Assembly (NCBI GenBank): GCA_009773555.1
Contig: WSXZ01000012.1
Coordinates: 103,569 to 167,568, forward strand
Length of the DNA: 64,000 nt
Direction of reading: 5' to 3'
DNA from: Methylocystaceae bacterium
GTDB lineage: Bacteria; Pseudomonadota; Alphaproteobacteria; Rhizobiales; Beijerinckiaceae
Part shown: one piece after another, positions 4,485 to 20,076 of the stretch
How positions within the stretch are numbered: position 1 is the stretch's first letter
Layout of the letters: each line of letters opens with the position of its first letter
Program-made: the position numbers and the translations under genes
The notes under the pieces: model-generated
What the model was told of the DNA's origin: nothing
The model's database searches: none
The model's input: the letters and a program-made list of their open reading frames with translations, nothing else

Positions 4485-6614
4485 TCACTTCGACGCCACC
4501 AGCCTGCCGTTCTCCGAGTCCCACTCAATTCCCAGCCGGGACATGACGCGATGTTGCACGGAGCAGACATCCGTCGGGAGCCCGGCGGCGCTCGCCTGCG
4601 CCCTCTCCTTTGCGAACTCAGCCGCCAGTTCGAGAGCGCTCCAATCCTCGGGGCGCTGCATCGCCTGCGGTCCGGCGGCGCTCGCCACAAGCCTGCCGTT
4701 CTCCGAGTCCCGTTCAATTCCCAACCGGGACATGACGCGATGTTGCACGGAGCAGACATCGGTCGGGAGCCCGGCGGCGCTCGCCTGCGCCCTCTCCTTT
4801 GCGAACTCATCCGCCAGTTCGAGAGCGCTCCAATCTTCGGGACGCTTCGTCGCCTGCGGTCCGGCCGCGCTCGCCACCAGCCTGCCGTTCTCCGAGTCCC
4901 ACTCCAATCCCAACCGGGACATGACGCGATGTTGCACGGAGCAGACATCGGTCGGGAGCCCGGCGGCGCTTGCTTGCGCCATGTCCTTTCTAAACTCGGC
5001 CGCCAGTTCGAGAGCGCTCCAATTTTCGGGACGCTGCGTCGCCTGCGGTCCGGCCGCGCTCGCCACTAGCCTGCCATTCTCCGAGTCCCACTCCAATCCC
5101 AACCGGGACATGACGCGATGTTGCACGGAGCAGACATCGGTCGAAAGCCCGGCGGCGCTCGCCTGCGTCATCTCCTTTCGGAACTCAGCCGCCAGTTCGA
5201 GACCGCTCCAATCCTCGGGGCGCTTCGTCGATTGTGCGCTCAACTGATTCGCCCGTGTCACCGGGAGGGAAACGCTTGCGCGCGGGGCCGAGCGCGCTGT
5301 GGCCGGCGCGCCTTCGAGCCTCACGCCGCCTTCAGGAAAGAGTTTGCCAAGCACATAATTGGCGTGTTTGTCGACACTTTCAGCGGCGGAACTCCGGATA
5401 TACGACGCGTCGGGTGTAATCCCGGCAGCGAGCAAATCTCTTTCAGTTCGCCATATCTCCAAGAGAAAGAGCTCGTCCCGCTTCACTCGACCGATGCTGG
5501 ATAATTGCTTCACGCGATAATTCAACAAGTCAGAAACCGCGGAGAGCCGAGTGTCGCTCGAATTTCCTACCGCCTTGGGTTGATAGCCGCGCTCCTCCGG
5601 CTCCGCGTCATTTCCGACGGCCCGCGATCTAAGCAAGGGCATGGGACGTCGAACAAGAGAGATCGACTTGAGGCGCCTTACCTTTCCGCCCTGATCGCTG
5701 AAGAAGGTCGGCGACACGCTGGTCAGCCCCATTCTGTTTACGATTTGCAATGCTTCAGGCTGCCAATCGATTTTCGCCTCCAGCCGGCCTTTGTTGATTT
5801 GCAGATCGACAATCTCGCCGATCGGCGCCGACGTAACGTCTTCGCCATTGTCGATTTGAATATCCGGCCGATGTTCAATGCATACAGGAAAAACGCGGTA
5901 ATCATGATCGTCGCTGCGCCGCGCCGCCGTGAATGCGTCGCAGATCGCCTTTCCATCGATGTAGAAGATATCCTCCGTTTGCGTCTCGACGAAGCCCAGG
6001 GCGGCAAAGACGACAACCCATTCGGGCAAAGGCTTCGTCCGCGGCATTGGCGTCGCGATCATTGCATAAATGATGTCTTCCATCTTGGCGGCAAGCGAAG
6101 CGCCGTGCGTCGTTTGCGCGGCAGCGAGCGCGCGCTGGTTCGCGAGCGCGGGCGCCGTGACAAGCGCAACGGCGCGCAACCACTTCGTCTTTCCTTCAGG
6201 CGTATGGAAAAAATCGGGGGAAACGAAGCGATGCGTTCGCTTGCGTAAGACCTCCCTGCCTTCGTCCAGCCAATCGACTTTGCCCTGAAGCGCGCCATTC
6301 TTGACGCTCAGCTCGGTAATCCAACCGACGGCGTCCGCGCGCTCCCCGGTGCTGGCGGCTCTAGGCGTCGAGTGATTTATGTCGATCGGAATGTCTAGGC
6401 CGTCGGCTTCAAAGCGCTCGATAAGCGCCTGAGCGTCCACGTCGTAACTTCTCCCGTCGCGAGTTGCGATGCGCCCCAGCTGAGGGAAAATCGTAATCCA
6501 CGTCGGCGGCTCCGCGCCGGCTTTGGGCAGCGGGGCCGAGATGGAAAGCATGGAGTTGTCCTCGATTAGATCATACATCATCGTGATGCGTCCTTTTGCG
6601 GCCCGTCCTTGCAC
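4485..6614 (-). CDS. Mu gpI-like protease/scaffold protein with duplicated protease-like domain and 4x63-aa C-terminal repeats
   Basis: Domain 1 contains DINHST and RFVSPDFF, domain 2 contains CIEHRPD and SVSPTFF (His/Ser positions of Mu-like I protein); four RPEDWSALELAAEF...VQHRVMSRLG...LVAS units. Confidence 0.75.
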   Translation of the reverse strand: MQGRAAKGRITMMYDLIEDNSMLSISAPLPKAGAEPPTWITIFPQLGRIATRDGRSYDVDAQALIERFEADGLDIPIDINHSTPRAASTGERADAVGWITELSVKNGALQGKVDWLDEGREVLRKRTHRFVSPDFFHTPEGKTKWLRAVALVTAPALANQRALAAAQTTHGASLAAKMEDIIYAMIATPMPRTKPLPEWVVVFAALGFVETQTEDIFYIDGKAICDAFTAARRSDDHDYRVFPVCIEHRPDIQIDNGEDVTSAPIGEIVDLQINKGRLEAKIDWQPEALQIVNRMGLTSVSPTFFSDQGGKVRRLKSISLVRRPMPLLRSRAVGNDAEPEERGYQPKAVGNSSDTRLSAVSDLLNYRVKQLSSIGRVKRDELFLLEIWRTERDLLAAGITPDASYIRSSAAESVDKHANYVLGKLFPEGGVRLEGAPATARSAPRASVSLPVTRANQLSAQSTKRPEDWSGLELAAEFRKEMTQASAAGLSTDVCSVQHRVMSRLGLEWDSENGRLVASAAGPQATQRPENWSALELAAEFRKDMAQASAAGLPTDVCSVQHRVMSRLGLEWDSENGRLVASAAGPQATKRPEDWSALELADEFAKERAQASAAGLPTDVCSVQHRVMSRLGIERDSENGRLVASAAGPQAMQRPEDWSALELAAEFAKERAQASAAGLPTDVCSVQHRVMSRLGIEWDSENGRLVASK
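4488..5230 (-). repeat. Four tandem 189-bp coding repeats
   Basis: acatgacgcgatgttgcacggagcagacatc recurs at 4541, 4730, 4919 and 5108, exact 189-bp period. Confidence 0.95.
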
Positions 6615-7152
6615 CCCTTGACGTCCTCGCGGCGTCCTTGTCGGCCACTCTCATGGCGGCAAGCCGGTAGAGGACTGCGCGGCGACAAATGCCAGTCTGT
6701 TTCGCAAGCTCCGAAGTGCTTAGTCCCTGCGACAAGCCGTCTCTCAGCTTTAGGTAAATCAGCTCGTTTCTCGCTGTCGGAACGTCGAAATATTCGCCGA
6801 AGCCGCCGATCGTTTCGACGACTTTCAAGGCGCATTCGCCCCCAAGCAGAACAACTAATGGATGTTGGCGGCGCCGACGAAGCGTCTTCAAAGCGGGGAG
6901 ATACAGCCGCCGACCGCCGAACTCGCGCGCAATCGCGATTGCCGCATCTATGCCCACCGCATCGGCGATGGCTTGCAGTCTTCCAGGGAGCTTTTGGGCT
7001 TCGCGCTTTTTCGTCGGCTTCGGCACGGGCGCTTCGCATTCCTGCGTAACTCTTCTTCGGCACGCGTCGACGAGGAAAAATAGCTCCGACGTTCGATCGC
7101 TCGCTTCAGTGTGAAAGGTTTCACATGGTGAAACCTTTCCTCCTCTCGTCAC
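6571..7152 (-). CDS. Mor-like transcription activator (true start probably downstream of 7152)
   Basis: AIADAVGIDAAIAIAREFGGRRLYLP ... HPLVVLLGGECALKVVETIGG and C-terminal HTH STSELAKQTGICRRAVLYRL. Confidence 0.7.
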   Translation of the reverse strand: MTRGGKVSPCETFHTEASDRTSELFFLVDACRRRVTQECEAPVPKPTKKREAQKLPGRLQAIADAVGIDAAIAIAREFGGRRLYLPALKTLRRRRQHPLVVLLGGECALKVVETIGGFGEYFDVPTARNELIYLKLRDGLSQGLSTSELAKQTGICRRAVLYRLAAMRVADKDAARTSRGARTGRKRTHHDDV

Positions 7153-19843: not shown

Positions 19844-20076
19844 TTCGCCTGCGCCTCGAACAGCTCTGAGATGAGGCGTTGTCGGATTTCAATTGCTTTC
19901 CGACTGTGGCGTTCCCCTTTAAGGGCCTTCTCGGCCGTTTGCCTATTAATGCCTTCGGCTCTACACCAAGCGGACAGGCTTGATCGCCGTGCCGTTAGAG
20001 CGGCGCGAACCGCGACGTAAAGGTCACCCGAACCAACGGCAACCGTTTTGAGAGTTACAGTATGTTGGTGCAACAT
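19840..20076 (-). CDS. Ner-like DNA-binding regulator
   Basis: 78-aa HTH protein directly upstream of MuA and divergent from repressor; 4-bp overlap with MuA start. Confidence 0.65.
   Translation of the reverse strand: MLHQHTVTLKTVAVGSGDLYVAVRAALTARRSSLSAWCRAEGINRQTAEKALKGERHSRKAIEIRQRLISELFEAQAK

Follow-up and report, generated by a model that had tools for sequence, protein, structure and literature searches.

Does a locus that carries a Mu-type transposition module and a single phage head gene represent a prophage that has lost most of its genes, or a small element that exploits other phages? This question is raised by DNA next to recA in a 4.0-Mb alphaproteobacterial genome, of which we analyzed a 64-kb stretch (the window; coordinates refer to it) alongside relatives of the same GTDB family, including Methylocystaceae, Chelatococcus and Lichenibacterium. 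A first-pass annotation had proposed a Mu-type satellite that keeps only a protease/scaffold gene and Mor-like activators, spanning 4485-20076.

A discrete Mu-type element abuts the recA upstream region

The proposed span falls inside a mobile element whose true ends are at 3961 and 20805 (Table 1). The right terminus, read inwards, is TGGAGCGGACATAATTATTTGTCC and is inverted relative to the left terminus; this end abuts the upstream region of recA, which starts at 20944. Because the locus has defined ends and target duplications, and because an empty site for a sister insertion in the G204 genome was found in G215, sequence comparison indicates that it is a discrete mobile unit with its own mobility genes.

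Table 1. Features of the element and its insertion site in the window.
Feature	Coordinates	Strand	Evidence or remark
Whole mobile element	3961-20805	-	16,845 bp; TG...CA inverted ends; homology with G204 element begins exactly at 3961
Target duplication CTCG, left copy	3957-3960		4 bp; matches 20806-20809
Target duplication CTCG, right copy	20806-20809		4 bp
Left terminal inverted repeat TGGTATCGACATCGCTATTTGACC	3961-3984	+
Right end, terminal motif twice in tandem	20759-20805	-	20759-20781 and 20782-20805
Perfect LexA (SOS) box GAACAAAAAAAGAAC	20812-20826		recA upstream region; 6 bp from element end
Second SOS box, one mismatch, GAACAAATCGTGCAC	20837-20851		31 bp from element end
Repressor-like HTH protein	20100-20591	+	Pfam HTH_3 1e-6; transcription towards SOS box; diverged in G204
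Ner-like DNA-binding protein	19840-20076	-	weak HTH match; position conserved in relatives
MuA transposase	17864-19843	-	PHROG phrog_310 7e-53; MuA tree
MuB-like AAA+ target protein	17100-17867	-	phrog_296 1.5e-24; Phage-MuB_C
GemA/gp16 homologue	16606-17040	-	PF06252 4e-24
Small conserved protein	16349-16609	-	Ka = Ks = 0 vs G204
Conserved protein without assigned function	15784-16263	-	90% identical in G204
Protein with MuA C-terminal-like segment	15008-15787	-	PF09299 0.0013; 74% in G204
Cargo: response regulator	13300-13662	-
Cargo: hybrid histidine kinase	11437-13155	+
Cargo: KaiC	9896-11431	+
Cargo: DUF6883 protein	7960-9510	-
Mor-type activator 1	7183-7620	-	PHROG late activator 8e-23; 62% identical to Mor of resident full-length prophage
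Mor-type activator 2	6571-7152	-	PHROG late activator 3e-16
gpI-like head protease	4485-6614	-	PF10123 3e-28; PHROG head maturation protease 6e-41
o4412, family-conserved last gene, small HTH protein	3999-4412	-

Pfam and PHROG profiles found no virion gene between the ends besides the gpI-like gene, and among the element genes no site-specific recombinase or integrase, only the MuA-type transposase. A search with the DDE_2 Pfam model found no match; it was uninformative, since all controls likewise gave none. The Mor-like activators claimed by the first-pass annotation are present as two Mor-family genes. The cargo genes (7960-13662) occupy an exchangeable middle at about 7841-14210, which is absent from the G204 element.

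Just beyond the left end, an AAA ATPase gene and a DUF262 (GmrSD_N/NsnA-like) gene form a candidate defence pair (1196-3831) that stands in place of about 1.1 kb common to G204 and G215. The pair was considered as element cargo and rejected because it falls outside the left end. Interspersed repeats of the GGGCAATnCGCCCGCGGAGG type lie at 14210-14660, and similar sequence seems to be present beside the protease gene of a prophage elsewhere in the same genome, on contig C105.

A sister copy with a different target duplication

Another genome of the genus, G204, carries the same element in the same place, with DNA 91-95% identical over the shared parts. MuB and GemA are 98-99% identical between the two copies and the gpI modules 95%. 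The target duplication of the G204 element is ATTC at both ends, versus CTCG in the window, and the left flank, shown to be native in G204 by the empty site, is unlike that of the window copy. Since duplications and left flanks both differ, the simplest reading of these sequences is that the two copies arose by separate insertions; a single insertion followed by flank replacement and alteration of the duplication is possible and needs more steps. The two copies also differ in entire modules, namely the repressor/Ner immunity region, with 27-42% identity, and the cargo, which in G204 consists of GajA, GajB and a RES-domain-type protein in place of the DUF6883, KaiC, kinase and response regulator genes. 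GajA (6e-213) and GajB (2e-172) make up a complete Gabija system (L075 3068-6618).

The gpI-like protease is remodelled and under purifying selection

As the first-pass annotation had claimed, the sole virion gene of this element is a heavily remodelled protease/scaffold gene of the gpI type. The protein has tandem protease modules, the first at residues 34-171 and a diverged second at about 195-324, followed by four 63-aa C-terminal repeats. The first module shares 64% identity with the protease encoded by the complete Mu-like prophage of contig C105 and conserves His81 and Ser132, the putative catalytic residues. In a structure predicted with moderate confidence, strands and helices follow one another identically in both modules, and a Foldseek search with the model pointed to T4 gp21 and to the assembly proteases of herpesviruses (probability 0.7-0.97, E about 0.04-0.2). 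LetB, the top match by E-value, was dropped as meaningless at a TM-score of about 0.13. The tandem form is also found in the gpI-like protein of the G240 element, which is 56% identical. Between the window and G204, Ka/Ks of the gpI modules is 0.26, and the gene is under purifying selection; in G204 it is interrupted within the repeat region, with the protease modules intact.

The element belongs to a family of small elements with varying virion genes

Relatives were gathered by MuA similarity alone, regardless of insertion site. About 20 were found across the Hyphomicrobiales, 8.7-16.8 kb in size where both ends could be placed, and they share a layout of repressor, Ner, MuA, MuB, GemA, at least one Mor gene and one to five virion genes, mostly with o4412 last. 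Duplications of 4 bp were seen in the window, G204, G123, L095, L097, L136 and L166, with G187 a degenerate, weak case; clean target duplications are limited to about eight elements. The virion genes vary from member to member: G123, G181 and G115 have a gpT-type head protein and a tape measure, L134 has head and protease, G240 and G036 have protease and tape measure, G054 has capsid, protease, tape measure, J and tail completion, and L136 has a tail fibre. PHROG and Pfam tallies over 85 element genes, with transposition and control genes left out, gave among the families listed the Mu gpT head (8), the Mu-like protease (8) and other capsid, tape-measure and tail-completion proteins; neither portal, terminase nor sheath occurred among the best 25 of 110 PHROG and 25 of 26 Pfam families. 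These are small integrated elements in which the sets of virion, packaging and lysis genes are incomplete; across members, genes for protease/scaffold, capsid, tape measure and tail fibre occur. They share with transposable phages the MuA/MuB module and Mu-type ends, and complete virion and packaging genes are absent.

The first-pass annotation had named full-length prophages with an ordinary gpI and neighboring capsid genes as the relatives that simple deletion would predict. Our search returned instead a lineage of about 9-17 kb with varying virion subsets. The conserved ends, conserved last gene and small relatives fit a Mu-type satellite rather than a deletion, but the idea that such satellites keep only the protease was too narrow: this trait is particular to the window member, and relatives retain capsid, tape measure or tail fibre.

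That the locus is the remnant of a Mu-like prophage whose virion genes were deleted could explain why its gpI module and Mor genes are clearly phage-derived and similar to those of a resident prophage. However, both ends and the target duplication are intact, the sister copy has another duplication and left flank, some 20 relatives are equally small with the same layout, the gpI-like gene is under purifying selection, and the MuA of the resident prophage is different. We therefore regard the deletion-remnant reading as already contradicted and very improbable.

Among other cargo in the family, the element of Methylobacterium platani carries the defence gene RmrA. In Chelativorans xinjiangense, a CRISPR-array-like stretch with a Cas2-like ORF, possibly part of the element, follows the MuA, MuB and GemA genes of an insertion at lexA (L096 13492-20971). 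A MuAB transposon of the same MuA clade on Mesorhizobium plasmid pWSM1497 (L224) carries a DNA-repair exonuclease and a large AAA ATPase, with no phage genes listed.

Insertion occurs beside LexA boxes in one orientation

A perfect GTTC-N7-GTTC box was found beside the repressor/MuA end in 20 distinct elements, always on that side. The box-adjacent insertions lie upstream of lexA (13), recA (6) and probably ssb (1; G240, read from a frame-shifted ORF call), plus one site without an assigned gene (L090). Insertions at lexA were seen in G123, G187, YIM 77505, Lichenibacterium, Hyphomicrobiaceae UBA7697, Bauldia, M. platani, Pararhizobium antarcticum, Chelativorans, AFS011520, Rhizobium lemnae and Nitratireductor, and those on the recA side in the window, G204, Rhodopseudomonas palustris JSC-3b, Xanthobacter and two viral-collection contigs. 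Of the 52 windows in which a box was expected, 20 had a perfect one, compared with 17 of 1047 windows taken from the same loci as controls (p = 5e-19). The distance from element end to box was mostly 28-43 bp (16 values, median 31.5). The ends in the window and G204 lie 6 and 4 bp from the perfect box, and 31 and 29 bp from the one-mismatch box, which is largely conserved in uninserted members of the genus.

All 18 box-positive rows of the MuA tree belonged to a single 23-row clade (support 100/100), and none fell in the 27-row sister clade, although Sneathiella members of the latter lie next to one-mismatch boxes in front of recA. A few members of the box-positive clade have no box near the end, namely L089, L092, which has an IS in its flank, and L112, L113 and L127 from Mesorhizobium. 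As an outside test, 398 genomes were searched with o4412 alone; the single new case was G742, where most of MuA is missing yet the locus adjoins lexA and its box. Taken together, these sequence data indicate that the family inserts next to LexA boxes of SOS genes in one orientation, with the repressor/MuA end facing the box.

Selection that favors harmless intergenic positions ahead of essential SOS genes might instead explain the proximity to boxes, with no targeting involved. Upstream insertion does leave the operator intact, and a lexA or recA locus is common to several inserts. Such selection would not be expected to give a single orientation in all box-positive cases, a distance as narrow as that seen in most, and use of more than one host gene, while the sister MuA clade, Sneathiella recA excepted, has no comparable preference; we give this explanation little credence.

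Candidate helpers and a satellite model

In both genomes with the window type of element there is a full-length Mu-like prophage, whose gpI is of the ordinary kind. The first-pass annotation had suggested looking for such prophages in the same strain or genus with related MuA ends; the prophage was found, but its MuA is different. In the window's own genome (G000) the candidate helper is complete and occupies about 3.7-46 kb of contig C105 (L012-L014), with gpI and Mor 64% and 62% identical to those of the element. A KaiC and histidine-kinase pair adjoins its end, as in the element cargo, with KaiC 41% identical. The C105-type prophage of G204 (L078/L079) is 93-99% identical to C105 in TerL, portal and many tail proteins, versus 89% in protease, 54% in J (decoration) and 61% in capsid. 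Since genes for which satellites would compete are among the diverged ones, this pattern could fit an arms race with satellites; ordinary recombination could also produce it.

The Mu portal model matched 7 of the 20 element-bearing genomes, always elsewhere than the element, compared with 19 of 199 genomes of the window's family (p = 0.003, bearers removed from the background). As the other 13 bearers had no Mu-type portal match, a helper in the same genome may not be required, or the helper could belong to a different type. The lack of a Mu-type portal in most bearing genomes would also fit a domesticated Mu-type transposon with defence cargo, whose capsid and tail leftovers serve as decoys against infecting phages and whose own DNA is never packaged. 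The Gabija and RmrA cargo and the nested Mesorhizobium plasmid lineage are in line with this idea. Late activators, matching sets of protease, capsid and tape measure, and a repressor/Ner switch resemble a lytic program instead, and occurrence in many genera with two sister insertions suggests transfer, such that we consider the decoy explanation unlikely.

We think it likely that the element is a transposing phage satellite, driven by MuA/MuB, directed mostly to LexA operators and diverting helper assembly, and the satellite reading as such is well supported by the comparisons above. The element would be moved by its own MuA and MuB. In most of the family it would land in a single orientation, about 30 bp away from the LexA operator that precedes lexA, recA or a different SOS gene, and the repressor/Ner switch would hold it silent. 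With an active helper Mu-like phage, the Mor-type activators would turn on late genes which, rather than a virion set, comprise a few morphogenesis parts that set head or tail form. These parts would divert helper assembly, with portal, terminase, tail and lysis functions supplied by the helper. A Mor protein matched to that of the helper, together with a virion set concerned with head and tail form, suggests redirected helper assembly by analogy with other satellites. On this model a helper would mobilise the element, and the gpI-like protein may resize or redirect helper capsids.

Relation to known mobile elements

Like Mu- and B3-like phages, the elements have MuA, MuB, GemA, a Ner/repressor switch, Mor, gpI/gpT-type head proteins and TG...CA ends. 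Unlike these phages, they are about 9-17 kb long, no portal, terminase, tail or lysis set was found in them, and they combine a 4-bp duplication with one-way insertion beside LexA boxes; Mu duplicates 5 bp of its target. No close MuA was found in isolated phages among 50,697 phage records, where the best match had 71% coverage at 23% identity; Pseudomonas transposable phages gave 39% coverage at about 26% identity.

The elements resemble PICIs, cf-PICIs, P4-like and other satellites in being small, in missing virion genes, in carrying morphogenesis-type genes and defence cargo, and in their likely dependence on a helper. In contrast to PICIs and P4-like satellites, they move by MuA/MuB transposition with no integrase seen, and the PICI traits of AlpA-type control and primase modules were absent from the PHROG/Pfam matches listed. 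To our knowledge, known phage satellites integrate via recombinases at fixed att sites. AH14b, for example, is a P4-like satellite with a tyrosine recombinase (PMC4936722), and a 2024 review of helper-dependent elements does not contain the term "Mu-like" and uses "transposase" in passages on IS/MITE relations (PMC11389934). Searches of open-access literature gave no precedent for Mu-type satellites or LexA-box-targeted transposition, an absence that is not proof of novelty.

The chances are about even that these elements form a hitherto undescribed satellite class with a dedicated selector, perhaps o4412, that lands beside LexA operators and carries swappable capsid/protease/tape-measure sets that rebuild the helper. 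If so, such satellites would sit at SOS promoters that become active during induction of helper prophages. By transposing to an operator of the SOS regulon, a satellite would gain an attachment site that is portable and available in nearly every host, and its residence would be coupled to the signal that induces helpers. The capsid, protease and tape-measure genes of satellite and helper would provide natural pairs for testing how particle size is set.

In outline the family also resembles Tn7 and its relatives, which likewise pair a transposase with an AAA+ protein and insert one way round, at a constant spacing from a chromosomal sequence that is recognized. It differs in having MuA/MuB and phage switch genes, in using a repeated operator, the LexA box, rather than one gene end, and in having a candidate selector only. 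The family matches listed assigned MuA and MuB and included no Tn7-like TnsA/TnsB/TnsC or TnsD/TniQ. The family is a candidate for operator-guided DNA insertion.

A candidate selector of the insertion site

Insertion is presumably carried out by MuA and MuB, directed to the LexA box by a putative selector. The o4412 protein is a candidate target selector or packaging/regulatory factor; we favor it as the best candidate for the selector because it is encoded by the last gene of most elements and has a predicted HTH with a LexA-like helix. Its structure model (pLDDT 72) contains a confident three-helix HTH, and the recognition-helix region, PSKSGIFRY, resembles RSKSGIHRL of the local LexA. Alignment to LexA DNA-binding domains by hhalign was suggestive at most (probability 27%, P 7e-4). 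Foldseek with the model gave nothing significant, with LexA not among the matches, so the likeness of the helix to LexA is seen in the amino acid sequence only. Alternatively, LexA bound at the box could itself recruit MuB. Assignment of o4412 as TerS was considered and set aside for want of a supporting family model. In Acetobacteraceae, proteins related to o4412 (L108 5723-6490 and L116 11985-13550) contain several tandem HTH units.
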